NCBI GenBank assembly: GCA_017440065.1
Contig: JAFSHY010000109.1
Coordinates: forward strand, 1-33,081
Reading direction: 5' to 3'
From: Oscillospiraceae bacterium
GTDB taxonomy: Bacteria; Bacillota; Clostridia; Oscillospirales; Oscillospiraceae
Length of the DNA: 33,081 bases
The notes beneath the pieces were generated by a model. That model made no database searches. It saw only the letters and a program-made list of their open reading frames with translations, and had not been told where the DNA came from. How positions within the stretch are numbered: the stretch's first letter is position 1; the number at the start of each line of letters is the position of its first letter. Of this stretch, positions 1,045-18,059 are shown in pieces. A program made the position numbers and the translations under genes.

Positions 1045-2382
1045 TTAGAAGCTGCAGACCTCCATGCCCAGCATGTTGGCCAGGGCGGTGAGGGCTTCGC
1101 GGTGGTTGCCGCGGATGACGGCGAAGTGAGGCTCGAAGCTGGCCTTGACGCTCTCTTCCACGACTTCACGGCTGTTGCGCGCGGTCTTGACCACGACGGA
1201 GGTGCCGGTGAACTGCTTGGGCTTGTCGAGGATCTCGCCGTTCAGCAGGAAGAAGCGGAAGGTGCCGTCGGGCTTGCGGCCGATGCGGAACACGGTGGCT
1301 TCGGGAGCGGACTTGCAGCCGAAGTCCATGGCGGGGCCGATCTTGCGGTTGGGATGCACGCCGACGGTAGCGCCGGTATCCTCGCGGGCGAGGGAACAGG
1401 CAGCGGCGCCGCAATGCCAGAAGGTGATGGTGCTTTCCTCTTCATTGAGGGAAACGGGGTCGCCGAAGTAGACAGGCTCACCGGAGAGCTTCATGCCCAA
1501 CCACATGGAGAGGGCGCCGTACATATCGGCTTCGCAGGCGGCGGCAACGCCCTTGTCGTTCAGCATGCTCAGCACGGTGCAGACGGGCGTGCCGAAGGAG
1601 GTGAAGAAATCGGGCCAGCAGCGGGAGGCCAGAGCGCCGATGCGGTTCTTTTCCACATAGTCGGAATAGGCCTTCAGCAGACGGGCATGGTCGGTGACGT
1701 TCTTTTCGGGGGTCTTGTCCAGACCGACGGTGCAGCAGCGGGTCTTTTCCACGAAGGGCAGCACTTCTTCATCGGTATAGCTCTTGGCGATGTCGATAAG
1801 TTCGCGGGCTTCGATGGATTCCAGCGTCACGCCGAAGACAGACAGCAGCTCGGAGTCCAGCGCGCGGCCGAAGCCGAAGCCCTGAGGCGTATGGCCGATG
1901 GCAGCCATGCGCAGGGAGCGCATCTCGTGCAGCAGCTTGCCGGCAGCGATGTAGGAAGAAAGCGTCTTGCCCACGCGCTCACATTCGGGAGCGCCGAAGA
2001 CATACTGGAAGGGACGGCCGAAAGCAGCCAGCGCGTTGGCGGCGGAGTAGGCGCCGGTCAGGGAGTTGAGGCGCAGACGGCCGCCGTCGATGACGGGCTC
2101 TGCCAGCGTCCAGAGGATGACGGGGCAGCTGAAGCGGCGCAGCACTTCGGAAATGTAGGCGGAGTTGGCGAAGGTGATGTTCTGGAAGATGACGAGGTCG
2201 GGGGAGAGGGGCTCGAGGAAAGCTTCCAGCTTATCGATGGTGAGCAGCATCTCATCGGGAACGATCACGTTTTCGTCGATGCTCCTGAGGAGGGCAATGC
2301 TCTTTTCGAACTCTTTACCGGCACTTTCCAGATGGAAGGTGGGGGCGCCTGCGGGGACATATACGGTCTTGAATGCAGCCAT
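1045..2382 (-). CDS. L-fucose/L-arabinose isomerase family protein
   Basis: This 445-residue protein resembles the sugar-isomerase superfamily of FucI and AraA. The metal-site signature is visible: Glu284 in ACEAD, Asp308 in FGDP and His323 in WHCGAA; a further His-rich stretch near the C terminus (EPHFAVIRGNH) fits the family's C-terminal domain. An upstream in-frame ATG at 2460 exists, but AGGAG lies 9 bases before the ATG at 2382, so the shorter form is chosen. It is divergent from the transketolase operon and shares its 277-base promoter region, which suggests co-regulation with sulfoquinovose genes. It could isomerise a sulfosugar or sulfotetrose, or an unrelated sugar; the sequence does not decide. 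A distant superfamily relative lies at 20803-22170. Confidence 0.75.
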   Translation of the reverse strand: MAAFKTVYVPAGAPTFHLESAGKEFEKSIALLRSIDENVIVPDEMLLTIDKLEAFLEPLSPDLVIFQNITFANSAYISEVLRRFSCPVILWTLAEPVIDGGRLRLNSLTGAYSAANALAAFGRPFQYVFGAPECERVGKTLSSYIAAGKLLHEMRSLRMAAIGHTPQGFGFGRALDSELLSVFGVTLESIEARELIDIAKSYTDEEVLPFVEKTRCCTVGLDKTPEKNVTDHARLLKAYSDYVEKNRIGALASRCWPDFFTSFGTPVCTVLSMLNDKGVAAACEADMYGALSMWLGMKLSGEPVYFGDPVSLNEEESTITFWHCGAAACSLAREDTGATVGVHPNRKIGPAMDFGCKSAPEATVFRIGRKPDGTFRFFLLNGEILDKPKQFTGTSVVVKTARNSREVVEESVKASFEPHFAVIRGNHREALTALANMLGMEVCSF

Positions 2383-2455
2383 GGTAAACATCTCCTGTAT
2401 CAGTAGTATTATTTCTTTCGTTTTTCGCGGAACGCTATATTCGTTTACGGAAGAA

Positions 2456-2485
2456 ATCATATCATATAAATATAAAAAATGTCAA
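2456..2485 (-). promoter_or_regulatory. Minus-strand promoter of the fucose-isomerase-like gene
   Basis: On the minus strand a perfect -35 TTGACA (2485-2480) is followed after 18 bases by -10 TATGAT (2461-2456). It points at the gene starting at 2382, leaving a leader of about 67 bases. Confidence 0.6.
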
Positions 2486-2659: not shown

Positions 2660-3481
2660 TTGAAAGACATTAAGACTATCTGCAAAGAGATCAGATGCGA
2701 TCTGGTGAAGTGCATCGCACATCTGGGCGTCGGCCACATCGGCGGCTGCCTGTCCCTGGTCGATGCTCTGGCCGTCCTCTATTTTGAGGAAATGAACGTG
2801 GACCCCGCCAACCCCAAGATGGAAGGCCGTGACAGACTCGTCTGCTCCAAGGGCCATGCCGGTCCCGCTGTTTACGCAACTCTGGCCAACAAGGGCTACT
2901 TCCCCAAGGAAGAGCTGCTCACTCTGAATCAGAGCGGCACCAACCTGCCCAGCCACTGCGATATGAACCGTACCGTCGGTATCGATATGACCACCGGTTC
3001 TCTGGGTCAGGGCTTCAGCTGCGCCGCAGGCGTTGCTCTCGGCAGCAAGCTGCGTGAAGATGGCGCCACCATCTACACCATCATCGGCGACGGCGAAAGC
3101 CAGGAAGGTCAGATCTGGGAAGCTGCCATGTTCGCAGCCCATCAGAAGCTGGACAATCTGGTCGGCCTGACCGACTACAACAAGCTGCAGATCGACGGCA
3201 CCGTCAGCCAGGTCAACGAGCTGGCCGATCTCGGCGCCAAGTGGGCTGCCTTCGGCTGGAATGTCATCGACGTCAAGGACGGCAACGATCCCGCTGAGAT
3301 CAAGGCCGCCGTGCAGGCTGCCAAGGCAAACCGCGGTTCCGGCAAGCCGACGATGATCATCCTGAACACCGTCAAGGGCAAGGGTGTTTCCTTCATCGAA
3401 GCCCTCGGTGCTGCCAACCACAACACCACGATGAACGCGGAAGAATGCGCCCGCGCCATCGCCGAGATCATGGGGGAATAA
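2660..3481 (+). CDS. sqwG: Transketolase N-terminal subunit, probable 6-deoxy-6-sulfofructose transketolase
   Basis: This 273-residue protein is the thiamine-diphosphate-binding half of a split transketolase. It has the GDGE motif at 143-146, the partner Asn174 in DYNK, and His26 and His66 (KGH) at active-site positions. The start is a TTG preceded by AAGGAGAG at good spacing. It is followed by the C-terminal subunit four bases after its stop. Split transketolases are common in Clostridia for the pentose phosphate pathway. Here the gene neighbours (RpiB-like, Fe-ADH, exporter, DUF4867, sulfoquinovosidase) match the sulfo-TK pathway, in which SqwGH moves two-carbon units from sulfofructose and then sulfoerythrulose to glyceraldehyde 3-phosphate. 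Family is certain; substrate is inferred from context. Confidence 0.85.
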   Translation: MKDIKTICKEIRCDLVKCIAHLGVGHIGGCLSLVDALAVLYFEEMNVDPANPKMEGRDRLVCSKGHAGPAVYATLANKGYFPKEELLTLNQSGTNLPSHCDMNRTVGIDMTTGSLGQGFSCAAGVALGSKLREDGATIYTIIGDGESQEGQIWEAAMFAAHQKLDNLVGLTDYNKLQIDGTVSQVNELADLGAKWAAFGWNVIDVKDGNDPAEIKAAVQAAKANRGSGKPTMIILNTVKGKGVSFIEALGAANHNTTMNAEECARAIAEIMGE

Positions 3482-3485
3482 GCTT

Positions 3486-4409
3486 ATGGAAATGAGAGCT
3501 GTTTACGCTGAATGCATGGCCGAACTCATGAAGGCCGATCCCAATGTCTGCATCCTCGATGCCGACCTCGCCCGTGCCAACGGCACCCTGGGCATGTATC
3601 CCAAGTTCCCCAAGCAGATGTTCGACGTCGGCATTGCCGAGCAGAACATGGCTTCCATCGGTGCCGGTCTGGCCAGCTATGGCTTTAAGCCCTATGTCCA
3701 GTCCTTCACCGCTTTCGCGACCCGCCGCATCTGCGACCAGGTCGCCATCTCCATCGCCTATGCCAAGCAGAACGTCAAGGTCGTCGGCACCGACCCCGGC
3801 ATGTATGCCGAGCTGAACGGCGGCACCCATATGTCCTTTGAGGACATCGCTGTCCTGCGTTCCATCCCCGGCATCGTCATCTTCGAGCCCGTGGATGCCA
3901 CCCAGCTGCGCGCCGCGATGCCCATCATCAATGACTATGACGGCTGCGTCTATATCCGCCTGTTCCGTAAGGAAGCTCCCGATGTCTTCGGCGAAGGCTA
4001 CAAGTTCGACCTCTTCAAGGCCGACCAGCTGCGCGAAGGCGCCGATGTCTCCATCTTCGTTTCCGGCCAGCTGACCACCGAGGTCCTGACTGCTGCCGAC
4101 AAGCTGAAGGAAGAAGGCATCAACTGCGATGTTTACAACATCCACACCATCAAGCCCATCGACCGTGAAGCCGTCCTCGCTTCCGCTGCCAAGACCGGCG
4201 CTGTTCTGACCGTGGAAAACCACAATGTCATCGGCGGTCTGTACTCTGCCGTGGCAGAGGTTCTCGGCACCTCCAAGATCCCCGTTGTCGGTCTCGGCGT
4301 CAATGACCGCTGGGGCGAAGTGGGCAAGGTTCCCTATCTGCGCGAAGTCTTCGGCTTCACCGCGGAAAACATCATGGCAAAGGCCAAGGAAGCCATTGCC
4401 GCCAAGTAA
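3486..4409 (+). CDS. sqwH: Transketolase C-terminal subunit, probable 6-deoxy-6-sulfofructose transketolase
   Basis: This 307-residue protein holds the pyrimidine-binding and C-terminal domains of transketolase. Glu52 in GIAEQNM is the residue that activates the cofactor, followed by the usual aromatic-rich segment GFKPYVQSFTAF. Together with the preceding gene it makes a complete enzyme of normal size. The start ATG lies just after the upstream stop (3479-3481), with GGGGAATAAG as a modest ribosome site, implying coupled translation. In the sulfo-TK pathway this pair performs both transketolase cleavages and yields two xylulose 5-phosphates plus sulfoacetaldehyde. A role as an ordinary pentose-phosphate transketolase cannot be excluded from the protein alone. 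Confidence 0.85.
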   Translation: MEMRAVYAECMAELMKADPNVCILDADLARANGTLGMYPKFPKQMFDVGIAEQNMASIGAGLASYGFKPYVQSFTAFATRRICDQVAISIAYAKQNVKVVGTDPGMYAELNGGTHMSFEDIAVLRSIPGIVIFEPVDATQLRAAMPIINDYDGCVYIRLFRKEAPDVFGEGYKFDLFKADQLREGADVSIFVSGQLTTEVLTAADKLKEEGINCDVYNIHTIKPIDREAVLASAAKTGAVLTVENHNVIGGLYSAVAEVLGTSKIPVVGLGVNDRWGEVGKVPYLREVFGFTAENIMAKAKEAIAAK

Positions 4410-4433: not shown

Positions 4434-4907
4434 ATGAAAATCGCAATCGGCAGCGACAAGTCCGGCTTCAACGCCAAGGAAGCCATCAAGGCCTATCTGC
4501 TGGAAGCAGGCGTCGATTTTGATGATCTCGGCACGCTGGATGCCGATCAGCCCATGCCTTACTACGCAGTGGCCGACAAGGTCGCTCCTCTGGTTCAGAA
4601 CGGCACCTATGACCGTGCCATCCTGATCTGCGGCACCGGCGCCGGTATGGGCGTTGTGGCCAACAAGTACAAGGGTGTTTACGCTGTTGCCTGCGAAGGC
4701 GTTTACTCCGCCAGAATGGCCCGTGCCATCAATGGCGCCAACGTTCTCGCCATGGGCGGCTGGATCGTCGGCCCCGAAATGGCCGTTGACATGGTCAAGG
4801 CATTCCTCGCCACCGAATGGCTGGAAGGTCTGGAAGACTGGAGACAGGCCAACCTGAGAAGATTCAATGAGCAGGTCAAGGCCATTGAGGAAAAGATCTA
4901 TGGTTAA
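4434..4907 (+). CDS. sqwI: RpiB/LacAB-type isomerase, probable 4-deoxy-4-sulfoerythrose isomerase
   Basis: The 157-residue protein has the RpiB fold signature, with the catalytic Cys66 in ICGTGAGMG. Several positions that bind ribose 5-phosphate in classical RpiB are changed. The usual DHxG motif reads DKSG (Lys9), the usual HND stretch reads ING at 99-101, and the Arg after the FG/GG turn is Trp110. Catalytic machinery is therefore kept but the phosphate-sugar contacts are not. That fits an enzyme acting on a sulfonated, non-phosphorylated tetrose, as reported for SqwI of the sulfo-TK pathway. AAAGGAG precedes the ATG. The gene lies between the transketolase and the dehydrogenase and overlaps the latter by 8 bases. 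Confidence 0.8.
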   Translation: MKIAIGSDKSGFNAKEAIKAYLLEAGVDFDDLGTLDADQPMPYYAVADKVAPLVQNGTYDRAILICGTGAGMGVVANKYKGVYAVACEGVYSARMARAINGANVLAMGGWIVGPEMAVDMVKAFLATEWLEGLEDWRQANLRRFNEQVKAIEEKIYG

Positions 4908-5997
4908 GGATTTTCTGTTCTATCAGCCGGTGAAGATCTTCTTCGGCATGGGTAAGATGGCCGTTGTCAACGATGTGCTGGAAAGCCTCGGCATCGAACG
5001 CTGCGTCCTGGTCTGCGATACCTTCTTTGCGGCTAAGGGGCAGCAGCTGATGGAGAGCAATTCCCGCATCGTGGATCTCTTCGCCAAGGTCGAGCCCAAT
5101 CCCCAGCTGGCAGGCGCCAATGAAGTCGCGGAACTCTGCCGCAAGCACAACGCACAGGCCGTTATCGGCCTCGGCGGCGGCAGCTCCATCGATACCGCCA
5201 AGTTCGCCGCTGCCATTGCTCTCGGTGAGGAAGAGGCAGAGGTCTACTACCACGGCAGGAAGCCCTTCCCCGCAGACCGTCTGAAGATCATCGCCGTGCC
5301 CACCACCGCCGGTACCGGCAGTGAGGTCACGCAGGTCTCCGTTATGAACTGCGGCGAAGAGAAGATGACCATCAACAACCCCGTCTTCATGCCCACCGCT
5401 GCCGTTATCGATCCCGAACTGATGCTGACCGTTCCTCCCCGCGTGACCATGGTCACCGGCCTCGATGCCCTGTCCCATGCGCTGGAAGGCTACTGGAGCG
5501 TCAACCATCAGCCTCTGACCGACCTCTATGCCATCGAAGCCGTCCGCTTCGTGCTGAACAATCTGGAGAAGGCCTTCCTCGACGGTTCCGATAAGGAAGC
5601 CCGCTGCAATATGGCCTATGCCGCTCTGCTGGCCGGTCTGGCCTTTGGCCAGCCCAAGACCGCGGGCAGCCACGCCTGCAGCTATCCGCTCTCCATGGAT
5701 TATCATCTGCCTCACGGCGAAGCCTGCGCCTTCACCATGGACAGCTTCGTCCGCATCAATGCCGATGAGCGCCTCGAATACCTGGTCAAGCAGGTCGGCC
5801 TCGAAAGCACCGATGCCCTGGCAGAAGAGATCATCCGCCTCAAGAAGCTGGGCGGCCTGCGCTGCACGCTTTCCGATCTGGGCGAGGTGGATCTCGATAA
5901 GCTGGCGGAGGACTGCTCCAAGCAGGGCCTTATGAACAACAACCCCGTCAAGATGTCCGTCGCGGATCTGCGCGCGATGTTTGAGAAACTGGCATGA
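4900..5997 (+). CDS. sqwF: Iron-containing alcohol dehydrogenase, probable sulfoacetaldehyde reductase
   Basis: This is a 365-residue group III (Fe-type) alcohol dehydrogenase. It has the nucleotide loop GGGSSIDTAK (92-101), TTAGTGSE (135-142), and the four metal ligands Asp189, His193, His258 and His272. A longer frame opens at 4867, but GAGG about 10 bases upstream of the ATG at 4900 and the normal N terminus (beginning MVKDF) favour the shorter form. It overlaps the RpiB-like gene by 8 bases and is followed by an overlapping exporter gene. Relatives of this family reduce sulfoacetaldehyde to isethionate in anaerobes. That role would regenerate NAD+ as the last step of the pathway; the exact aldehyde is inferred from context. 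Confidence 0.8.
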   Translation: MVKDFLFYQPVKIFFGMGKMAVVNDVLESLGIERCVLVCDTFFAAKGQQLMESNSRIVDLFAKVEPNPQLAGANEVAELCRKHNAQAVIGLGGGSSIDTAKFAAAIALGEEEAEVYYHGRKPFPADRLKIIAVPTTAGTGSEVTQVSVMNCGEEKMTINNPVFMPTAAVIDPELMLTVPPRVTMVTGLDALSHALEGYWSVNHQPLTDLYAIEAVRFVLNNLEKAFLDGSDKEARCNMAYAALLAGLAFGQPKTAGSHACSYPLSMDYHLPHGEACAFTMDSFVRINADERLEYLVKQVGLESTDALAEEIIRLKKLGGLRCTLSDLGEVDLDKLAEDCSKQGLMNNNPVKMSVADLRAMFEKLA

Positions 5998-6911
5998 ATA
6001 AGAAAGCGCTCAATGCCGCAATGATCAGCGGCATGGTAGTTGTGTGGGCGATCTACTATGCTACCTCCAAATGGGCGGTGGGCGTGACCGGATCCCCCTT
6101 TGTAGCCGGATTTTTGCTGCGTGCCGCTGCGCTGGTGTTCCTTACCGCGCAGCTGGCCGTCCAGCATAAGCTGGGCGCTGTGCTCAAGCAGGGCAAAACT
6201 GCTCTGATCCTGCTGTCCATCGGCGTATTCGGTTACCTGCTGGATACCTTTGCCAACATGGGCCTGCAGTACGGTGATGTGGGCGCCGGTACGGCGCTGC
6301 TCAAGTCCGATGTGCTGATGGTCAACATCGCCACAGTTGTGATCTACAAAAAGCGGCTCTACATTTCCGACTGGATCGGAACAGTAATCATGCTGGTGGG
6401 CGTCCTGCTCGTCATGGGCATGAATTTCACATCTGTTTCCATCAGCTGGTACGATCTGTTCTTCATCGCCAGCGCTGTCTGCGTCACGATCAATGCCTTT
6501 ATCATCAAGGCTGCCCAGGAAAAGTACAAGGCGGATACGGACATCATCGGTTATTACAATAACTTTGTAGTGTTCCTGTTGTTCTTTGTCAGCACGATGG
6601 TCACCTGCAAAGGCATGCCGCAGCTTTCCGGCCACGGCGGCAGCTTCTGGCTGCTGGTTCTGCTGGGCGGTGCCGCGCAGACCATGATCTATTTCTTCTA
6701 TTACCGCAATCTCAAGCGGCATGAGGTATGGCTGGTCAAGCTGTATCTGCTGTTCATGCCCGTGGTCAGCTGCTTCATCGGCGTGCTGTTCCTCGGCGAG
6801 CAGCTTTCTGCCATGAAGATCCTCGGCATTGCCGTCGTTCTGGCGGGCGCTGCCGTGATCCTTTTGCGGGAAAAGCTTAATCTGTTGTTCCAAAAGAAGA
6901 AGGTTTCGTAA
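5994..6911 (+). CDS. DMT superfamily transporter (EamA), probable sulfonate exporter
   Basis: The 305-residue protein is strongly hydrophobic, with about ten membrane segments in two EamA-type halves. The second half ends in the typical stretch around GEQLSAMKILGIAVVLAG. Its ATG overlaps the stop of the dehydrogenase gene (ATGA), so it is translationally coupled to it. No gene here degrades a C2 sulfonate further, so export of the end product, most simply isethionate, is the natural reading. Uptake of a sulfosugar is the alternative. The family call is firm, the cargo is inference. Confidence 0.8.
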   Translation: MNKKALNAAMISGMVVVWAIYYATSKWAVGVTGSPFVAGFLLRAAALVFLTAQLAVQHKLGAVLKQGKTALILLSIGVFGYLLDTFANMGLQYGDVGAGTALLKSDVLMVNIATVVIYKKRLYISDWIGTVIMLVGVLLVMGMNFTSVSISWYDLFFIASAVCVTINAFIIKAAQEKYKADTDIIGYYNNFVVFLLFFVSTMVTCKGMPQLSGHGGSFWLLVLLGGAAQTMIYFFYYRNLKRHEVWLVKLYLLFMPVVSCFIGVLFLGEQLSAMKILGIAVVLAGAAVILLREKLNLLFQKKKVS

Positions 6912-7002: not shown

Positions 7003-8235
7003 GTGAAACTGGAAGGCGATAATATGGCCAATGTGAAGCGGACGAACCGCAGCGCCGTGCTCCGCAACCTGCATGAGAACGGCAGTACATCCAGAAAACG
7101 GCTGTCCGAAGCGGTCAAACTGACCCCTGCGACGATCTCCAAGATCGTGGCGGATCTGATCGAGGAAGGACTGCTGACCACCGGCCCTGTCATCGAGACG
7201 GGGAAAAGTGTGGGAAGACGGGAGGTCCTGGTGGAACTCAATGCCCATGCCCGCTGCGCGCTGGGTATTCTGATCAACATCGGCGAAGCACGGCTGTCCG
7301 CCGTCTGGCTGGACGGCAGCACCGCGTTTTATGAAACCGTGTCCCTGCCCCGTAAGGCACCTGCGGATGAAACCGTGGAAATGCTCACGAAACGGCTGAT
7401 GGAGCTGGCGGAGGAGCATCACCTTGAACGCGAAAAGATCATCGGCGTCGGTGTGGCCATCCGCGGCATTACGGATACCAAAAACCGCGTCATCCGTCAT
7501 AGCTTCAGCGCGCTGGATCAGGAGGAATATCCGCTGGCGGAACGGGTGGAAATGCTCACCGGTCTGCCTGTGATCATGGAGAATAACGTCCGCTCGCTGT
7601 TTTTGGCGCAGATGTTTGAAGCCCGTGACAAGAGCAGCAAATCCCAGTATTTCCTCCGCTGCGAATACGGTATCGGCGCATCTCTCTCGCTGGATGACAA
7701 GATCTGGAGAGGAGAGACCGGACGCTGTTCCGAGATCGGCCACGTTCCCGTGATCCGTCGGGGCGGCAAGCCCTGCGCCTGCGGAAAAAGCGGCTGTCTG
7801 GAGACCATCGCCTCTCCTTCCGCCATCCGGGAGGATGCCATCGCCATCATGTCGCCCACGGAAACGCCCGTGCTCTGGAATATGCTGAAGCATACGAAGG
7901 ATGAGGAGGTCTCGCTGGACGCGATCCTGGAGGCGGCCCGCTGTGGCGATGAAAAGATCGCGCAGATCGTGGATCGGGCGGTCAATCTGCTTACCTCCAC
8001 GCTGAAAACCGTGATCTATACCATCAATCCCGCCAAGATCGTCCTCTACGGACAGCTGTTCGAAAACAGCTTCTATCTCAGCCGCTTCCTTGCCGAAATG
8101 GAGGAGGGGCTGGATTCCGAGGCGGGCCGTGTCACCATTGAAAAGAGTCCCTACAATCTGATGCTGGAGAAGAAAGCCGCCGGTATCCTGATGGTGGAAC
8201 ACTTTTATGAACTGGGAGGAATACCCGATGAATGA
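7003..8235 (+). CDS. ROK family transcriptional regulator
   Basis: This 410-residue protein combines an N-terminal winged helix (about residues 15-60, helix-turn-helix near TPATISKIVADL) with a ROK sugar-sensing domain. EIGH (244-247) and CACGKSGCLE (258-267) form the ROK zinc site. The segment that in ROK kinases reads ENDV or similar reads ENNV (193-196), so the catalytic Asp is missing and the protein should be a sensor, not a kinase. The GTG start has AAAGGAGG at good spacing; an internal ATG at 7024 is less well placed. It heads the operon with the DUF4867, YesL and GH31 genes, so it most likely represses this locus until a sulfosugar or pathway intermediate binds. Confidence 0.85.
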   Translation: MKLEGDNMANVKRTNRSAVLRNLHENGSTSRKRLSEAVKLTPATISKIVADLIEEGLLTTGPVIETGKSVGRREVLVELNAHARCALGILINIGEARLSAVWLDGSTAFYETVSLPRKAPADETVEMLTKRLMELAEEHHLEREKIIGVGVAIRGITDTKNRVIRHSFSALDQEEYPLAERVEMLTGLPVIMENNVRSLFLAQMFEARDKSSKSQYFLRCEYGIGASLSLDDKIWRGETGRCSEIGHVPVIRRGGKPCACGKSGCLETIASPSAIREDAIAIMSPTETPVLWNMLKHTKDEEVSLDAILEAARCGDEKIAQIVDRAVNLLTSTLKTVIYTINPAKIVLYGQLFENSFYLSRFLAEMEEGLDSEAGRVTIEKSPYNLMLEKKAAGILMVEHFYELGGIPDE

Positions 8236-8896
8236 AATGCTGAAAAAACTGCAGGAAAAGAACCCGCATATCCGTCTGCACTGCGTGACGGAGCCCTTGT
8301 TTGAAACCTATGGCCGCGTGCTTTCTGCCGATACGGCACAGCTGCATGCCGCGCTGGCAAAGACGCCCATTCCCGAAAGCGGCAATATGTACCGCGCCTC
8401 CGAACCTATCCTGGAGGAAACGGATCTGACCGCATGGATCAAGACCGTGGTATTCGGCGAAATGCCGGTGCAGATGGGCTTCTGCAACGGCCGCGGCTTT
8501 ACCATGAACGCCATGGAATACCATAAGTGCAGCGAGGTCAACTATTCCACCACCGGCTGCATCCTGCTGCTGGCAAGACCCTGTGATCTGAAGAACGGCC
8601 GCCTGCACAGCGACGATGTCGTGGGCTTCTATCTGCCTGCCGGTGTGCTGGTGGAGATCCATCCCGAGGTATTCCATTTTGCTCCCTGCCGCATCAGCGA
8701 GGACGGCTTCAACTGCCTCGTGGTGCTGGAAGAGGGCGTCAATGCCGAATTTAAGGAGCCCATTGCCCTCAAGGACGGCGAAGCTGCCCTCCTGTGGCGC
8801 GTCGGCAAATGGATGATCTGCCATGCGGAAAGTCCGCAGGCCGGATTCGGCGCCTTCGTCGGTATCGACGGAGAAAACCTGAAGGTTCAGATCTGA
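8228..8896 (+). CDS. sqvD: DUF4867 family protein, candidate sulfoquinovose isomerase
   Basis: The 222-residue protein matches DUF4867, a cupin-like family. Likely metal or catalytic residues are His99 and Glu103 (EYHKCSE) and the cluster Glu143, His145 and His150 (EIHPEVFHF). Its ATG overlaps the end of the ROK gene by 8 bases, with GGGAGG upstream. From memory, sulfoquinovose-sulfofructose isomerases (SqvD/SftI type) of Bacillota sulfoglycolysis belong to this family, which fits its position beside the sulfoquinovosidase. I am fairly but not fully sure of that assignment. DUF4867 members also occur in galactose/tagatose operons, so another aldose-ketose isomerisation is possible. Confidence 0.7.
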   Translation: MNEMLKKLQEKNPHIRLHCVTEPLFETYGRVLSADTAQLHAALAKTPIPESGNMYRASEPILEETDLTAWIKTVVFGEMPVQMGFCNGRGFTMNAMEYHKCSEVNYSTTGCILLLARPCDLKNGRLHSDDVVGFYLPAGVLVEIHPEVFHFAPCRISEDGFNCLVVLEEGVNAEFKEPIALKDGEAALLWRVGKWMICHAESPQAGFGAFVGIDGENLKVQI

Positions 8897-8933: not shown

Positions 8934-9599
8934 ATGGCAAGGATAGAAAGAAGGAACGGTCATTTGCGCAAATCGCTGGAAGAATCCCCTGTTTACAATG
9001 GAATGTCCCTGATCATCGACGTGATCTTCGCGGGTATGATCTGGGTCGTGACGTCGCTGCCTGTGATCACCATCGGCGCGTCTTCTGCTGCCCTGTACTA
9101 TGCTGTAACCAAAACCATACGCAGAGGCCGCGGTAATCTGCTGAAATCTTATTTTTCCGCATTCCGCTCCAATTTTAAGCAAAGCACACTGATCTGGCTG
9201 ATCTACATCCTGTATGCGGCCGTAGGCATTGCGGATATGTATGCCATCGGGCTGATGGGACTGGCAGAGGGGAGTGTTCTGGATCACATCAGCAAGCTGT
9301 TTTTCGTACCCGCCGCAGCCACGCTTCCGTGGGTGTTCGCCTTTGTTTCCCGCTTTGAAAACACGGTGGGCGGTACGCTGAAATTCGTTGCTTATCTGAC
9401 GATGCGCCATATCGGCAGAACACTGCTGCTGGTGAGCCTTTTCCTGCTGTGCGCGGTGATCGCGTGGCTGCTGCCGCAGATCGGCTGGCTGCTGCCTGCG
9501 ATCTGCTGCCTGGCTATGAGCTATGTCATCGAGCCTGTATTCAAGGCACAGACGGAAAACCGAGAAGACGGCAACGCAGACCCCTGGTATAACGAATGA
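8934..9599 (+). CDS. YesL/DUF624 family membrane protein
   Basis: About 221 residues with several membrane segments. The N-terminal pattern (a Tyr-Asn stretch, then a long helix with TSLPVITIGASSAALYY) is typical of YesL proteins. These usually accompany ABC sugar importers and glycosidases in Bacillota; their role is not established. The ATG at 8934 has no good ribosome site; a TTG at 8964 preceded by AAGAAGGA is a plausible alternative start. It sits between the DUF4867 and GH31 genes in one operon, 37 bases after the former and 15 bases before the latter. Confidence 0.75.
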   Translation: MARIERRNGHLRKSLEESPVYNGMSLIIDVIFAGMIWVVTSLPVITIGASSAALYYAVTKTIRRGRGNLLKSYFSAFRSNFKQSTLIWLIYILYAAVGIADMYAIGLMGLAEGSVLDHISKLFFVPAAATLPWVFAFVSRFENTVGGTLKFVAYLTMRHIGRTLLLVSLFLLCAVIAWLLPQIGWLLPAICCLAMSYVIEPVFKAQTENREDGNADPWYNE

Positions 9600-9614: not shown

Positions 9615-11630
9615 ATGTATAATGTGAATCTGATCGAAGGCGGCTTCCGCCTGACGGCCGGTGAACGGCTGATCCTCGAGCATACACCTGCCGCACCCGC
9701 GATCTACGTGGGTCTTGGCAAAGAAAAAATCGAAATGTTCCGCGGCAACTTCCATATTTCGGACAGGATCTCCGAGCGCGTGGCGCTGCGTCTGGACGGC
9801 ATGGACAAATATGACGATGAGCTGACGCTCCATTTCTCCCATCCCGATGTCTACGGCGACTTCCGTCTGGTCATCTCGGAGCGGGACGGCTACATGACCC
9901 TTTCCACCTATACGGATGATCCCTGCTGCAACCGCATCTGGATCCGCTTCCATGCGGAAGCCGGCGAACATGTCATGGGCGGCGGCGAACAGTTCTCCTG
10001 CCTCGATCTGCGCGGCAGAATGTTCCCCATCTGGACCCGTGAGCAGGGCGTTGGCCGCAACAAGCTGACGGAGGTCACCCGTCTGGCCGATGAGCTGGAA
10101 GGCGCCGGCGGCGATTACCACACCACCTTCTTCCCGCAGCCTACCTTTGTTTCTTCCAGAATGTACTTTGTCCATCTGGAAAATTCCGAATACGCGGAAA
10201 TGGACTTCTGTGAGGACGATTTCCATGAGATCATGGTCTGGACGCCTGTGATCACCATGGTCATTGCCGCGGGCGGGTCCTATGAAGAACTGCTCTTCAA
10301 GCTGACGGAACTGCTGGGCCGTCAGCCCGAGCTGCCGGGCTGGGCCATGGAAGGCATCTGGCTGGGCATTCAGGGCGGCACGGAACGCACCACGGAGATC
10401 GTAAAGAAGTGCCAGGATGCCGGCATGGATGTTCCCGCCGTCTGGATCCAGGACTGGGAAGGCAAGCGTATCACCTCCTTCGGCAAGCGCCTGCAGTGGG
10501 ACTGGAGATGGAATCAGGAAATGTATCCCGGCCTCGATAAGGTCATCGAAGCCGATCCCGAGACCCGCTGGATGGGCTACATCAACCCCTATCTGGTGGA
10601 AGGCGGCGTTCTCTTTAAGGAAGCACAGGCAGCCGGCTACTTCGTCAAGAAGGCCGACGGCTCCGACTATCTCTTCGACTTCGGCGAATTCGACTGCGGC
10701 GTTGTGGACCTCACCATGCCGGAAGCCTTCGAATGGTACAAGAATGTCATCAAGAAGAATCTGATCGGCATGGGCTTCAAGGGCTGGATGGCCGACTTCG
10801 GCGAATATCTGCCCACGGATGCCGTCTGCGCCAACGGTGAGACCGGTATGACGGCGCACAACAAGTGGCCGATGCTTTGGGCCAAGTGCAACAGAGAGGC
10901 CGTGGAAGAAGCCGGTATGCTGGGCGACTGCGTGTTCTTCACCCGTTCCGGCTTTACGGGAACGCAGCGGTATTCCACGCTGATGTGGGCGGGCGACCAG
11001 TGCGTGGACTGGTCTGCCGATGACGGTCTTCCTTCCGTCGTCACCTCCGCGCTGGCGCTGGGTATGAGCGGCTTCGGTCTGCATACCTGCGATGCCGGCG
11101 GTTATACCACGCTCTTCCATCTGGCCAGAACCGAAGAACTGATGCGCCGCTGGCTGGAGTTCACCTGCTTCACGCCCGTTATGCGTACCCATGAGGGCAA
11201 CCGTCCCGATACCAATGTGCAGATCTATTCCAACGATGCCATGATCGCGGATGCCGCCCGCCTTTCCAAGCTGCATACGGCGCTGCGTCCCTATATGGAA
11301 GCCTGCGTGAAGGAAAATGCCGAAAAGGGCCTGCCTGTCATGCGTCCGCTGTTCTTTGCTGCACCGGATGTGGACAAGGCCTACGAGCGCGATCTGTTCT
11401 CCTATCTGCTGGGCGGCGATGTGCTGGTAGCTCCCGTGATCGAAGCGGGCGCGGAAAGCCGCAGCCTGTGGCTTCCCGAAGGCAAATGGGTACACCTCTG
11501 GACGAAGGAAGTCTATGAAGGCGGCGACGTCACCGTGGCATCGCCCGTCGGCCAGCCTCCCGTTTTCTACAGGGAAGGATCCGCATTTACTGCCCTTTTT
11601 GCCGAACTCGGTGAAAAATTCGCCCTGTAA
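9615..11630 (+). CDS. yihQ: GH31 sulfoquinovosidase (YihQ type)
   Basis: This 671-residue GH31 retaining glycosidase releases sulfoquinovose from its glycosides, such as sulfoquinovosyl glycerol. The nucleophile Asp394 lies in WMADFGEYLP and the acid/base Asp461 in WAGDQ. The residues that in E. coli YihQ hold the sulfonate are all present: Gln279 (QDW), Arg292 and Trp295 (KRLQW), and Tyr497 (GGYTTL). Their spacing to the catalytic Asp residues matches YihQ (offset 9 before, 11 after the insertion). Length is also that of YihQ (about 680). There is no signal peptide, so the substrate must be imported intact. GGAGG precedes the ATG. It ends the ROK operon, before a strong terminator. Confidence 0.9.
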   Translation: MYNVNLIEGGFRLTAGERLILEHTPAAPAIYVGLGKEKIEMFRGNFHISDRISERVALRLDGMDKYDDELTLHFSHPDVYGDFRLVISERDGYMTLSTYTDDPCCNRIWIRFHAEAGEHVMGGGEQFSCLDLRGRMFPIWTREQGVGRNKLTEVTRLADELEGAGGDYHTTFFPQPTFVSSRMYFVHLENSEYAEMDFCEDDFHEIMVWTPVITMVIAAGGSYEELLFKLTELLGRQPELPGWAMEGIWLGIQGGTERTTEIVKKCQDAGMDVPAVWIQDWEGKRITSFGKRLQWDWRWNQEMYPGLDKVIEADPETRWMGYINPYLVEGGVLFKEAQAAGYFVKKADGSDYLFDFGEFDCGVVDLTMPEAFEWYKNVIKKNLIGMGFKGWMADFGEYLPTDAVCANGETGMTAHNKWPMLWAKCNREAVEEAGMLGDCVFFTRSGFTGTQRYSTLMWAGDQCVDWSADDGLPSVVTSALALGMSGFGLHTCDAGGYTTLFHLARTEELMRRWLEFTCFTPVMRTHEGNRPDTNVQIYSNDAMIADAARLSKLHTALRPYMEACVKENAEKGLPVMRPLFFAAPDVDKAYERDLFSYLLGGDVLVAPVIEAGAESRSLWLPEGKWVHLWTKEVYEGGDVTVASPVGQPPVFYREGSAFTALFAELGEKFAL

Positions 11631-11665: not shown

Positions 11666-11709
11666 AATGTGCAAACGGAGAACATCCATCTCCGTTTGCA
11701 CATTATTTT
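11666..11709 (+). terminator. Strong terminator after the sulfoquinovosidase gene
   Basis: AATGTGCAAACGGAG (11666-11680) pairs perfectly with CTCCGTTTGCACATT (11690-11704) around a nine-base loop, followed by ATTTTT. It closes the ROK operon and separates it from the importer genes. Confidence 0.9.
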
Positions 11710-11767: not shown

Positions 11768-11796
11768 TTTACAAACCAGCGGCTTCATTCTATAAT
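11768..11796 (+). promoter_or_regulatory. Promoter of the ABC importer operon
   Basis: TTTACA (11768-11773) and a perfect TATAAT (11791-11796) are separated by 17 bases. The leader to the start codon at 11910 is about 107 bases. Confidence 0.75.
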
Positions 11797-11854: not shown

Positions 11855-11909
11855 ATATATTTTTTATCGAAATAAAAAGCCCCTAGATCATTGAAAAAGG
11901 AGATTGAAA

Positions 11910-13193
11910 ATGAAGAACATGAAAAAGCTTCTTGCTCTGGTTCTTGCCCTGCTGATGGTCGTTTCCATGGCCGCCTGCGGTGCCAAGAAGGAAGAGTCCA
12001 AGGAAATCGTTATCAACTTCCCCTGCATTTGGGTCGGTACCGACGCAAAGGCTCCCTACATGGCTAAGCTGGTTGAAGAATTCAACGCTGCCAATGCAGG
12101 CTCCATCAAGGTCGTGATCGAAGAACAGACCGATTATCAGGCATACCGTGACAAGATCCGTACCCTGATCACCACCGGCAATGCTCCCGACATCTTCTCC
12201 GTTGACAACCCTCAGGAACTGGCTAACTTCTCCGCCACCGGCAAGCTGATGGACTTCACCTCCGCTCTGGAAGGCGATTGGAAGGCCACCTTCAATGACG
12301 GCTGCATCGATCCTTACATCTATGAGAACGGTCAGATCAACTTCCTGCCCTTCGAAAGCGCTGTCATTCCCCTGGTTTACAACACCGAACTGCTGGCCGA
12401 AGTCGGCTACAACGAATTCCCCGCAACCTACTCCGAAATGATGGAAATGTTCGCCAAGCTGAAGGAAGCCGGCTACAACGCCTGCGGTCAGATGGCTGCT
12501 GAAAACGCATGGTCCTCCATGCTGTGGTACTCCCAGCTGGTCGCTTCCATCGGTGGCCCCGATGTCTACAAGAACGGTCTGGAAGATCCCGCTTTCGTTC
12601 AGGCTGCTGAAGTTCTGAGAGAAATGTACAACTACACCTTCGACGGTGCTGTTTCCGCTGCCGCTGCTGACGTCAACGGTCACTTCATCGCCCGCGACAC
12701 CGCCGTCTATATCAATGGCTGCTGGTGGATCGGCAACTTCTACAAGGAAGAAAATGCTGTCGACGGCAAGCTGCTGGCTGATGTCGTTGATGTTACCGGT
12801 GCTCCCACTTGGGAAGGCGGCAAGGGCGAAGGCGCTGTTGTTACTCAGGCTCAGGCTTTCCTGTGCGCTGCCAAGCAGGACGATCCTGCCAAGGAAGCTG
12901 CGATCATCAAGTTCCTGCAGTACATCACCGAACCCACCCGTATTTCTGAATGGGAAGCTTCCTCCGGTTCCATGTTCTTCATCGAGCATGAGCCCGCTGC
13001 TGACCTGAAGGAGATCTCCAAGAAGTTCGCTGCCGTTTCCAACGAAGCCAACTTCACTGTCTATACCTTCGCACAGTCTGTCCCCCTCGCAGTCACCAAC
13101 GAACTCCCCGCTGCCGTTTCCGCTCTCGCCAATGACGTTGTGGATGCTCAGGGCTTCGTGGATATGCTGATCGCTGCCCGCGACAACGCATAA
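11910..13193 (+). CDS. ABC transporter extracellular sugar-binding lipoprotein
   Basis: The 427-residue protein has a lipoprotein signal: MKNMKK, a hydrophobic stretch, then SMAAC with Cys23 as the lipidated residue. The mature part is a family 1 (MalE-like) solute-binding protein, with features such as ITTGNAPDIF and a Trp-rich C-terminal half (GCWW, GAPTWEGG). A TTG six bases upstream is in frame, but AAAGGAG favours the ATG at 11910. It begins an operon with two permeases. The ligand is unknown: it may be sulfoquinovosyl glycerol or another SQ glycoside, given the cytoplasmic sulfoquinovosidase next door. The following ChbG and NagA-like genes allow an amino-sugar oligosaccharide instead. 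Confidence 0.85.
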   Translation: MKNMKKLLALVLALLMVVSMAACGAKKEESKEIVINFPCIWVGTDAKAPYMAKLVEEFNAANAGSIKVVIEEQTDYQAYRDKIRTLITTGNAPDIFSVDNPQELANFSATGKLMDFTSALEGDWKATFNDGCIDPYIYENGQINFLPFESAVIPLVYNTELLAEVGYNEFPATYSEMMEMFAKLKEAGYNACGQMAAENAWSSMLWYSQLVASIGGPDVYKNGLEDPAFVQAAEVLREMYNYTFDGAVSAAAADVNGHFIARDTAVYINGCWWIGNFYKEENAVDGKLLADVVDVTGAPTWEGGKGEGAVVTQAQAFLCAAKQDDPAKEAAIIKFLQYITEPTRISEWEASSGSMFFIEHEPAADLKEISKKFAAVSNEANFTVYTFAQSVPLAVTNELPAAVSALANDVVDAQGFVDMLIAARDNA

Positions 13194-13261: not shown

Positions 13262-13293
13262 ACTTGCCATTATATTAAAATGGAGGTGGATTG

Positions 13294-14199
13294 ATGAAGC
13301 CGACAAAGTCGGACCGTAAGGTTTTGATCGCGTTCCTGGCTCCTGCCGTTGCGCTGGTAGTTCTTTTCTTCGTCATTCCCGTAATCTATGTTGCGGTGGT
13401 CAGCTTGCTGAAATGGAACGGCCTGACCAGTGCTGAGTTTAAGGGAATCGATAATTTTGTGGCATTGTTCAAGGATAAGGCGTTCCTGCGCTCGATTCTG
13501 AACAATGTGATCTGGGCAGCTACTGCGGCTGCGATTCAGGTCCCTCTTGCCATGCTGATGGCAATCATTCTCTCCAGAAAACCCAAGGGCTGGAAGTTCT
13601 TCCGTACGGTTTATTTCTTCCCGCAGGTTATTTCCGGTATCGCACTTGCCACCATGTGGCGCCATATCTATAATGCGGAAAGCGGCCTTCTGAACGGTCT
13701 GCTACGCCTCGTCGGTCTCGGTCATCTGGCTACCGACTGGCTGGGTGGTATGGACACGGCTTTGCCTTCCGTGCTGATCTACTGGGTGTTCTATGTGGGC
13801 TACTACATGGTCATCATGATGGCGGATATCACCACCATCGATGAGAGCTACTATGAAGCCGCCACACTGGACGGTGCTACTCCCTTCCAGCAGGCCATCC
13901 ATATCACCATCCCGCTGATTAAGGGTACCTCTCTGCTGACCTGCGTTACCCTCGCCAGCGTTATGGGTCTGCGCCAGTTCGAACAGGTTTACCTGCTCAC
14001 CAACGGCCAGCCCGCCAACACCACTTCGACCATTGTTCTGTATCTCTATAAGCAGATGCAGACCGGTAACTACGGCCGTTCCAGTGCTGCCGCTATCGTC
14101 CTGATCATCGTCGGCGCGCTGTTTATTGTCACCATCCGGAAGCTCTTTGAGGATCATAAGAAGGATCCCAAGAGAGTGATTGAAAAGGAGGCGAAGTAA
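13294..14199 (+). CDS. ABC sugar permease, MalF/UgpA type
   Basis: 301 residues with six predicted membrane segments, the first near residues 12-35. The EAA loop that contacts the ATPase is present (EAATLDGATPF). GGAGGTGG lies seven bases before the ATG at 13294, which is preferred over the TTG immediately upstream. It pairs with the next gene, whose ribosome site lies in this gene's last codons. No ATPase gene is found in the window, so a shared MsmX/MsmK-type ATPase elsewhere must drive the importer, as is common in Bacillota. Confidence 0.9.
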   Translation: MKPTKSDRKVLIAFLAPAVALVVLFFVIPVIYVAVVSLLKWNGLTSAEFKGIDNFVALFKDKAFLRSILNNVIWAATAAAIQVPLAMLMAIILSRKPKGWKFFRTVYFFPQVISGIALATMWRHIYNAESGLLNGLLRLVGLGHLATDWLGGMDTALPSVLIYWVFYVGYYMVIMMADITTIDESYYEAATLDGATPFQQAIHITIPLIKGTSLLTCVTLASVMGLRQFEQVYLLTNGQPANTTSTIVLYLYKQMQTGNYGRSSAAAIVLIIVGALFIVTIRKLFEDHKKDPKRVIEKEAK

Positions 14200-14200
14200 T

Positions 14201-15067
14201 ATGGCATCCATGACCAAGCGTTTGGATAAGTCCGGCCAGATCAAGGATACGATCCTTGGCATCGGCAAGTGGATCCTCATTGTTTTCTTCGCAGCCTATA
14301 CACTTCTGCCTTTGATCTGGCTGACGATTTCGTCCTTCAAAACGAACTTTGAAGTCCTCGCCAAGAGTCCCTTTGCGCTCCCTGAGGTATGGCAGTTCAA
14401 GAACTACCATAATGCTCTTACCGTGGCAGGTCTGGGCCGCATGATGCTCAACTCTGTTTTCGTTGGTGTTACCTCCACGGTCATCAACGTTCTTGTGGCC
14501 AGCCTAGCGGCTTATACCATCTCCCGTTTCAAGTTCAAGGGCAAGGAAAAACTGTTCCTTCTCTTCACGGTCGGTATCCTCGTACCTCTGAACGCGCTGA
14601 TGGTTCCCTACTTCCTGATCATCTCCAAGATGGGTCTGTATAACACCTATGCCGGTATGATCATCCTCTACACCGCCATCGGTATCCCCATGTCCACGGT
14701 TATCATCCGCGGTCTGATGGACTCCATCCCCATGGAGATCGAAGAAGCTGCCTATATCGACGGCTGCGGCTCCTTCGGCAGATTCATTCACGTGATCCTG
14801 CCGCTGGCCCGTACCGGCATCGTGACTGCCGCTACCTTCCAGTTCCTGACCTGCTGGAATGAATTCGTATTCGCCAATCTGATCGTTTCCTCTGATAAGC
14901 TGCGTACGATCCAGGTTGGTATCCGCTACTTCACCAACCAGTTCTCCACGGACTATGTTTCCATGTATGCCGCCATCGTGATCTCCATCGTTCCTTCGAT
15001 CCTGGGCTATGTCATCTTCCAGGAGCAGATCATCAGCGGTATGACCAGCGGCGCCGTCAAGGGCTGA
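14201..15067 (+). CDS. ABC sugar permease, MalG/UgpE type
   Basis: 288 residues, with a first membrane segment at about 20-42 and the EAA loop EEAAYIDGCGSF near the C-terminal third. An upstream in-frame start at 14180 would precede its own ribosome site; AAAGGAGG seven bases before the ATG at 14201 fixes the start. The start lies one base after the previous stop. It completes the two-permease importer and is followed after 10 bases by the ChbG-like gene. Confidence 0.9.
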   Translation: MASMTKRLDKSGQIKDTILGIGKWILIVFFAAYTLLPLIWLTISSFKTNFEVLAKSPFALPEVWQFKNYHNALTVAGLGRMMLNSVFVGVTSTVINVLVASLAAYTISRFKFKGKEKLFLLFTVGILVPLNALMVPYFLIISKMGLYNTYAGMIILYTAIGIPMSTVIIRGLMDSIPMEIEEAAYIDGCGSFGRFIHVILPLARTGIVTAATFQFLTCWNEFVFANLIVSSDKLRTIQVGIRYFTNQFSTDYVSMYAAIVISIVPSILGYVIFQEQIISGMTSGAVKG

Positions 15068-15077
15068 GTCCGATCCT

Positions 15078-15845
15078 ATGGCACCTGTTTCTCTGATCAC
15101 CAGAGCCGATGACCTCGGCTCCTCCCATGCCGCCAACGAAGCGATCCTTCAGGTGGCGGAGGCGGGCTTTGTCAAAAACATTTCCGTGATGGCAGTCTGT
15201 CCGCATCTGGAGGAGGCTGCGGAGATGCTCAGCGGCAGGAAGGATGTTTCCTTCGGCCTCCATGCCTGTATCACGTCCGAATGGGACAGAGTCCTTTGGG
15301 GACCTTTGGCATCCCGTGAACGCGTGCCGCATCTCATCGACGCAAGAGGTGCGATGTATCAAACGGTCGATGCGCTGGCGGCTGCCAAGCCTGCCGTGGA
15401 GGAGATCATGCATGAATACCGCTGCCAGCTGGAAACGCTGCGCCGTGTGGGCTTCCATGTTACATATCTGGATTCCCATATGATGCCGGAATTGCAGATC
15501 CCCGGTCTGCGGGAAGCCATGAGCCGTATGGCGGAGGAAGAAGGACTTGTTGACCACTCGCCCTTCTACCGGATGTTCCCGACGGATCTCAAGCAGCTGG
15601 CAAAGCAGCCGGAGCTGTTCCGCAGAACACTTCAGAGCGGAATCGAAGGCACGTATCTGATGATCATACATCCTGCCTGCTACGGCGAGGAAATGCTGCT
15701 GACAGGCAACCGGAAAAACAGCGGCGAGACCGTTGCGTCCCAGCGGGAAGCCGACCGCCGTTTTATGACAGATCCTGCCATATTGGCTGCCTGTAAGGAT
15801 TTCGGTGTCCGTCTGCTGCGTTATGAAGAAGCAGCTATAAAATGA
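15078..15845 (+). CDS. chbG: ChbG/HpnK (YdjC) family carbohydrate deacetylase
   Basis: The 255-residue protein carries the YdjC-family metal and catalytic residues: Asp11 and Asp12 in TRADDLG, His62 in FGLHA, and His134 in YLDSH. Family members remove acetyl groups from chitooligosaccharides or related amino sugars. It begins 10 bases after the permease stop with no strong ribosome site, suggesting translational coupling, and is therefore in the importer operon. That association is the best argument that the importer carries an acetylated amino-sugar glycan and not an SQ glycoside. The true acyl-sugar substrate is unknown. Confidence 0.8.
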   Translation: MAPVSLITRADDLGSSHAANEAILQVAEAGFVKNISVMAVCPHLEEAAEMLSGRKDVSFGLHACITSEWDRVLWGPLASRERVPHLIDARGAMYQTVDALAAAKPAVEEIMHEYRCQLETLRRVGFHVTYLDSHMMPELQIPGLREAMSRMAEEEGLVDHSPFYRMFPTDLKQLAKQPELFRRTLQSGIEGTYLMIIHPACYGEEMLLTGNRKNSGETVASQREADRRFMTDPAILAACKDFGVRLLRYEEAAIK

Positions 15846-15867
15846 AATACCGCCTATGGCGGTGAAA

Positions 15868-15896
15868 GAAATGGCGCAGTAATACTGCGCTATTTC
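15868..15896 (+). terminator. Double hairpin ending the importer operon
   Basis: ACCGCC/GGCGGT (15849-15863) makes a small hairpin. It is followed by a 13-pair stem GAAATGGCGCAGT (15868-15880) with ACTGCGCTATTTC (15884-15896), with one G-T pair and a three-base loop. The U tract after it is short. Confidence 0.6.
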
Positions 15897-15982
15897 TGTA
15901 TCATGATGCGGGAAGACGATCGGAAAATCGGAATCCTGCGAAAGAAAACCGTAATTATCCGTATGATTCCGCGAGATACGAA

Positions 15983-15991
15983 TGCTATACT
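15983..15991 (+). promoter_or_regulatory. Extended -10 promoter of the NagA-like operon
   Basis: TGC followed by TATACT (15986-15991) is an extended -10 element about 35 bases before the NagA-like start. No good -35 is seen at the expected distance, which could mean activator dependence. Confidence 0.5.
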
Positions 15992-16026
15992 GAAATCAGA
16001 AATAAGCTGCAGGAAAGGAGATCCCT

Positions 16027-17208
16027 ATGGAGATCATTCATGCAAATGTCATATCGAACGGCGCCATGCTGGCGGATGCGTATGTCCGCGCCTCAGATGG
16101 CGTGATCCGTGAGATCGGCGCCATGGAGCAGTATGCCCCCGACGGCTCGAAGGTGCTGGACGCAGAAGGAAACGTCCTTTGCGCGGGCTATATCGATCAG
16201 CACACTCACGGCGCCATGGGCTATGATGTGATGGACGCCACAAAGGAAGCGCTGGATGAGATCTGCCGCCATCACTTCCGAAACGGCGTGACCACTATCC
16301 TGCCCACCACCATGACCGCATCTTTGGAGGAGACCACCAAGGTGTTGTCCTTCCTGCGGGATTATGCGCCTCCCGTACCTGTCAAGATCCCCGGCGTTCA
16401 TATGGAAGGGCCGTTCTTCTCCGTGAAAAACCGCGGCGCACATATCGAGCGGCTGCTGACCGCGCCCACGGATGCATGGCAGCAGATGATCCGCGAACAT
16501 GCAGAAGTCGTGAAGATGATCTCGCTTTCGCCTGAACTGGAGGGCATGGTATCCTTTATCCGTCTCTGCGGAGAACTGGGTATCGTGGTATCCGGCGGTC
16601 ATGACGACGGCTATGACGATCCCATCTATGCCGCCATCGAAGCGGGCATGAGGAATGTCACGCATATCTTCTGCTGCTCCTCCGGCATTACCAGAAGAGG
16701 CTCGCCGTGGAAGCGGCTGGGTCTGACCGAGATCGGTCTGACCGATAACCGCCTTTACGCGGATGCCATTGCCGACGGCAACGGCATTCCTTACGATCTG
16801 CTGCCGCTGCTCTTCCGCGCCAAGGGTCGGGATCGGCTGATCTTTATTTCGGACAGTATGCGCGCCACGGGTCTGCAGCCCGGCACCTATCGCCTGGGCA
16901 GCGACGAGGAGGGCGTTATAGTGGATGTGACGGAAACCGCCGCCATTCTGCACGGCGAAAACCTGTTTGCCGGCAGTATCGCCTGCGTTTCCAAAATGGT
17001 GGAGGACGCGGTGAAGAGATCCGGGATCCCGCTGGTGGATGCCGTGCTGGCTGCTACCCGCAATCCTGCTGCCCTGCTGGGCCTGGAAGATCGCGGCGAC
17101 CTGCTGCCCGGTATGGCTTCCGCCATGAATCTGATCACCAAAGAGGGCGAACTGCGAAAGACCGTTGTTTGGGAAACTGTATACGAAAAAGGGGAGGAGA
17201 TCCAATGA
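16027..17208 (+). CDS. nagA: NagA-like amidohydrolase (N-acetylglucosamine-6-phosphate deacetylase family)
   Basis: The 393-residue protein has the family's metal and catalytic residues: HTH (59-61), Glu127 in MEGPF, His192 in GGHDD, His213 in VTHIF, and Asp276 in ISDSM. Two substrate segments are unusual. The canonical HLYNAM/HLFNAM stretch reads HIFCCS (213-218), and the ADGLH stretch that supplies a substrate-binding His reads ADGNG (249-253). The catalytic centre is thus intact while sugar or phosphate contacts differ. AGGAAAGGAG precedes the ATG. Its stop overlaps the start of the NagB-like gene (ATGA). It likely deacetylates an amino sugar, but perhaps not N-acetylglucosamine 6-phosphate itself. 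Confidence 0.8.
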   Translation: MEIIHANVISNGAMLADAYVRASDGVIREIGAMEQYAPDGSKVLDAEGNVLCAGYIDQHTHGAMGYDVMDATKEALDEICRHHFRNGVTTILPTTMTASLEETTKVLSFLRDYAPPVPVKIPGVHMEGPFFSVKNRGAHIERLLTAPTDAWQQMIREHAEVVKMISLSPELEGMVSFIRLCGELGIVVSGGHDDGYDDPIYAAIEAGMRNVTHIFCCSSGITRRGSPWKRLGLTEIGLTDNRLYADAIADGNGIPYDLLPLLFRAKGRDRLIFISDSMRATGLQPGTYRLGSDEEGVIVDVTETAAILHGENLFAGSIACVSKMVEDAVKRSGIPLVDAVLAATRNPAALLGLEDRGDLLPGMASAMNLITKEGELRKTVVWETVYEKGEEIQ

Positions 17209-18029: not shown

Positions 18030-18059
18030 CAGAAGAAACCCGTGCGGGAGGATCTGCGG

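Follow-up and report, generated by a model that had tools for sequence, protein, structure and literature searches.

The genes of the locus

The window, a 33,081-nt stretch of Oscillospiraceae DNA, carries a divergently transcribed sqvD homologue followed by sqwG, sqwH, sqwI and sqwF homologues, genes for an EamA permease, a ROK regulator, a DUF4867 protein and a DUF624 protein, a GH31 gene and an ABC importer, arranged as follows.

1045..2460, minus strand: SqvD/SftI-type sulfoquinovose isomerase (FucI-like; Fucose_iso_C); start probably nearer 2391 or 2382
2660..3481, plus strand: SqwG, sulfofructose transketolase N-terminal subunit (Transketolase_N; conserved order sqwG-sqwH-sqwI)
3486..4409, plus strand: SqwH, sulfofructose transketolase C-terminal subunit (Transket_pyr, Transketolase_C)
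4434..4907, plus strand: SqwI (PF02502; position conserved)
4867..5997, plus strand: SqwF, iron-type alcohol dehydrogenase, expected sulfoacetaldehyde reductase (Fe-ADH, conserved position); start probably 4900
5994..6911, plus strand: EamA/DMT permease, candidate isethionate exporter (PF00892)
7003..8235, plus strand: ROK-family regulator (PF00480; kept in relatives' clusters)
8207..8896, plus strand: SqvB/SftX (DUF4867), putative SQ mutarotase or ring-opening protein (PF16161; PDB 9gyy)
8934..9599, plus strand: DUF624/MusI-type membrane protein (PF04854; next to yihQ in relatives too)
9615..11630, plus strand: predicted GH31 sulfoquinovosidase, YihQ/SftG orthologue, 671 aa (PRK10426, PDB matches, residues)
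10371..11105, plus strand: active-site residues Q253, Q279, R292, W295, D394, E397, D461 and Y497 (MG1655 YihQ alignment)
11666..11704, plus strand: intrinsic terminator ending the yihQ unit, a 16-bp stem then ATTTTTAG
11768..11796, plus strand: promoter-like site TTTACA-17-TATAAT ahead of the importer (consensus match only)
11904..13193, plus strand: sugar-binding lipoprotein of the ABC importer (SBP_bac_1; 3′ of yihQ in relatives)
13291..14199, plus strand: ABC permease 1 (PF00528; 59-75% identical beside yihQ in relatives)
14180..15067, plus strand: ABC permease 2 (PF00528; 65-78% identical beside yihQ in relatives)

The full sulfo-transketolase gene set (SqvD, SqwG, SqwH, SqwI and SqwF homologues) is present in conserved order, with SqvD matching the NCBIfam SftI model (E 2e-121) at 406 bits, under its cut-off of 700, and SqvD orthologues of 65-73% identity adjoin sqwGHI in relatives. 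The locus is a complete sulfo-transketolase cluster, conserved in ruminant-gut Oscillospiraceae. A second FucI-like protein (20803-22170, minus strand) shows a trace SftI match of 23.7 bits. The DUF4867 protein, which matches PDB 9gyy (DUF4867) at E 6e-46, was considered as an SQ isomerase and rejected in that role; it is SqvB/SftX.

A sulfo-transketolase cluster has been described for Clostridium sp. MSTE9 (PMC9594981) and the same pathway occurs together with YihQ in rumen Ca. Limivicinus (Krasenbrink et al., 2026; PMC13219744). Both share SqvD, SqwGH, SqwI, SqwF, SqvB/SftX, YihQ and the ABC importer with the window, which differs in having an EamA/DMT permease instead of the described exporter SqwE, and an extra chbG-nagA-nagB-gfo block. 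Among the genes of the window no exporter of the SqwE type was recognized. The EamA/DMT permease is 58-63% identical to copies in close relatives' clusters, and a DMT permease is contained in the Faecalicatena SQ cluster (PMC11659671); its role as exporter is a guess.

From homology, key residues and conserved gene order we infer a pathway, with all of its reactions, the substrate taken up and the role of the exporter, in which the ABC system just downstream would import sulfoquinovosyl glycerol, from which the GH31 enzyme would most likely release α-sulfoquinovose and glycerol with retention. SqvB would then open the sulfoquinovose ring and SqvD convert sulfoquinovose to sulfofructose, from which SqwGH would carry out two C2 transfers onto glyceraldehyde-3-phosphate, SqwI acting between them. 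SqwF would reduce sulfoacetaldehyde to isethionate, to be exported by the EamA permease.

The GH31 enzyme

Escherichia coli YihQ releases sulfoquinovose, a sulfur-bearing sugar, from plant sulfolipids. The open reading frame at 9615-11630 (plus strand; 671 codons, no stop inside) encodes a protein about 50% identical to YihQ, which scores 898.9 bits against the NCBIfam YihQ model PRK10426 (cut-off 553). Its closest PDB chains include 5aed (YihQ; E 1e-223) and 6pnr (Eubacterium rectale SftG; E 6e-220), followed by 8r56, named only as GH31, and 5ohs/5ohy, named yihQ, and a wide gap separates these from other PDB GH31s. SftG is a proven sulfoquinovosidase that hydrolyses pNP-sulfoquinovoside, and 5ohy is cited as the A. 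tumefaciens enzyme AtSQase (both PMC11968277). In the tree the window protein falls inside a starred branch (100/99) of nine Arg301/Tyr508 rows, the root and deep branching being unsure. Oscillospiraceae assemblies from goat duodenum and roe deer omasum are among the named relatives of the GH31, and the Arg301-type gene is present in 11 family genomes, all 11 of which also carry SqvD.

The original prediction had stated that six residues face YihQ Q288, R301, W304, D405, D472 and Y508 with offsets of 9 for the first three and 11 for the rest. Alignment with the YihQ of E. coli MG1655 (NC_000913.3, b3878) reproduces these pairings and offsets exactly, for Q279 (codon 10449-10451), R292 (10488-10490), W295 (10497-10499), D394 (10794-10796), D461 (10995-10997) and Y497 (11103-11105), so that both the catalytic Asp pair (D394, D461) and the sulfonate-pocket residues (R292, W295, Y497) are present; Q253 and E397, equivalent to YihQ Q262 and E408, are conserved too. 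We take Arg292, Trp295 and Tyr497 to hold the sulfonate, Asp394 to be the nucleophile and Asp461 the acid/base, as in solved homologues; the pocket structures behind these roles are reportedly those of Speciale 2016 and Abayakoon 2018. Arg301 and Tyr508 (YihQ numbering) occur in every one of 20 YihQ-type sequences but neither in the GH31 α-xylosidase YicI of E. coli nor in a GH31 paralogue encoded by this genome (KQxxW ... GGF), and their match in the window enzyme is more than chance. The further claim that general GH31 α-glucosidases lack the KRxxW element holds for YicI and the paralogues, the sole sequences compared. An AlphaFold2 model built from four sequences is weak (pLDDT 60, pocket loops <50), and the pocket is therefore described from the alignment.

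The family score, the nearest PDB chains, the position in the tree, the key residues and the surrounding genes all support the assignment of the enzyme, very probably, as a retaining α-sulfoquinovosidase of the YihQ/SftG type, and the GH31 did serve, as had been proposed, to anchor the reading of the whole locus, which is a sulfo-transketolase cluster. That the enzyme is merely YihQ-like, with a plain α-glucoside or α-glucuronide as its main substrate, might be argued from the functional diversity of GH31 and from the same-genome paralogue, whose lack of Arg301 and Tyr508 shows that the pocket drifts within the family, but every sulfonate-pocket residue is conserved here, some of the nearest homologues are proven sulfoquinovosidases and the gene lies within a sulfo-transketolase cluster, which makes this reading highly improbable. 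As a sulfoquinovosidase, the enzyme resembles YihQ and SftG (5aed, 6pnr) in fold family by sequence, nucleophile, acid/base, the Q262/Q288/R301/W304/Y508 set and a sulfoglycolytic gene context, although the pathway served is sulfo-EMP in E. coli and sulfo-transaldolase in E. rectale. The window enzyme and its cluster are of an ordinary, already-known type.

The importer and the genes beyond it

The yihQ unit ends at the terminator at 11666-11704 (-25.1 kcal/mol, z -7.5); the promoter-like site that follows belongs to a class of matches no more numerous in total than in shuffles. The importer lies directly 3′ of yihQ in ten relatives, in one of which it ends at a contig edge, and no gene for an ATPase subunit adjoins the ABC genes.

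The importer is followed by chbG, nagA-like and nagB-like genes (15078-18029, plus strand), all below their NCBIfam cut-offs, and by a gene for a Gfo/Idh oxidoreductase (18042-19145, plus strand). The gap between permease 2 and chbG is only about 10 bases and the genes run along one strand, as would be expected if importer, ChbG, NagA, NagB and Gfo/Idh formed one amino-sugar system, the glycosidase then acting on a mixed glycan. This arrangement is nevertheless improbable, as relatives keep the yihQ-importer order without the chbG-nagA-nagB-gfo block, which recurs in none of the yihQ-importer clusters of the ten relatives, and a strong hairpin (z -6.2) separates chbG from nagA. Its absence from relatives also led us to set the block aside as a part of the sulfosugar system.

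The best PDB matches of the Gfo/Idh protein are the GH188 SqgA structures 8qc2 and 8qc3. Like the NAD-dependent sulfoquinovosidase SqgA (8qc2; PMC10755693), it retains in alignment the sulfonate triad R166, L170 and K172, together with E189 and H193, but Tyr136, located at the C2-OH in GH188, is replaced by Leu and the gene sits with nagA-nagB. For these two reasons the protein was not filed as GH188, and it probably belongs to a unit separate from the sulfosugar genes.

A sister lineage without Arg301

The same genome encodes a second YihQ-like GH31 (G000:C152:15782-17698; L037 3776-5746), in which Arg301 is replaced by Gln and Tyr508 by Phe, with a GPH symporter gene adjoining. It represents a sister group that shares about 35-41% identity with the window enzyme and carries Gln301, His474 and Phe508 (YihQ numbering); the one member scored reached 595 bits, above the YihQ cut-off. 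Phe367, Gly368 and Glu369 have been lost along with Arg301 in the lineage. The tree unites all Gln301 sequences (99/96) and places a single Arg301 sequence next to them (96/97), with uncertainty over its root and long branches. In some Ca. Limivicinus yihQ occurs twice (PMC13219744), a situation comparable to the window genome, where one of two YihQ-type GH31s lies in a distinct clade; the sections covered mention neither a loss of Arg301/Tyr508 nor its link to a GPH symporter.

The Gln301/Phe508 type was detected in 15 of 401 family genomes, and SqvD accompanies it in 14 of these against 9 of the 386 others (Fisher p 4.7e-19, which overstates independence because the genomes are related). In eight genomes no more than 20 kb separates the gene from sqvD, and in twelve a GPH symporter gene comes after it. 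In ten genomes, 78-100% complete (G036, G187, G217, G238, G252, G258, G289, G309, G322 and G328), SqvD is present and the Gln301/Phe508 enzyme is the only intact YihQ-type GH31; a search of these ten with the GH188-like Gfo/Idh protein of the window gave no match at E <= 1e-20. In G238 only part of the Arg301 gene is left (matches cover residues 1-279 and 410-476 and are followed by the end of permease 2), with a weak permease 1 match and no match to the binding protein, possibly through assembly error, and beside this yihQ-ABC remnant stands an intact pair of Gln301 GH31 and GPH genes (L110, G238:C64, 5123-6482).

In G306, G181 and G622, Gln301 enzymes that keep Tyr508 are encoded next to a homologue of sulfofructose transaldolase; G622 also has an SqvD orthologue of 65%. 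The G306 locus (L052, G306:C34, 6230-17504) comprises genes for a GPH symporter, the Gln301/Tyr508 GH31, the transaldolase homologue, a reductase and an SftI-like isomerase, and adjoins UxuA and a mannonate oxidoreductase. A further locus (L142, G509:C192, 6219-14544) holds a tandem pair of Gln301/Leu474/Phe508 GH31 genes flanking an ABC importer.

It is conceivable, at somewhat less than an even chance, that this lineage of the YihQ family, without Arg301, Phe367, Gly368 and Glu369 and in its largest branch also without Tyr508, stayed a sulfoglycolysis glycosidase. Such an enzyme would be a sulfoquinovosidase whose sulfonate pocket had been remodelled, usually with a GPH symporter in place of the ABC importer. 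The lineage may alternatively act on a related glycoside, for example an α-glucuronoside; a hexuronide substrate is conceivable given the uronate genes next to the clusters in G306 and G181, whose GPH symporter is 82% like the one adjoining the G290 Gln301/Phe508 gene. In the mostly open-access main texts covered, we found no report of GH31 sulfoquinovosidases lacking Arg301, nor an earlier one tying loss of sulfonate residues to sulfo-transketolase genomes. Because enzymes without Arg301 and Tyr508 are the sole YihQ-type GH31 in other sulfo-transketolase genomes of the family, the Arg/Tyr signature is no general test; it is a good predictor for the window enzyme and is not universal among GH31s linked to sulfoglycolysis.

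The GH31 finding fixes the function of the locus: it marks a ruminant-gut type anaerobe that could in principle convert plant sulfolipid head groups to isethionate, from which other gut bacteria form hydrogen sulfide. While the window enzyme itself is of a known type, the Gln301 sister lineage alongside it appears new and, if the proposed sulfosugar role holds, matters more. Surveys of YihQ that filter by signature residues (as in PMC8397734) would then overlook part of the sulfosugar-degrading community, and the sister lineage would make it possible to test directly how GH31 enzymes can remodel their recognition of the sulfonate.
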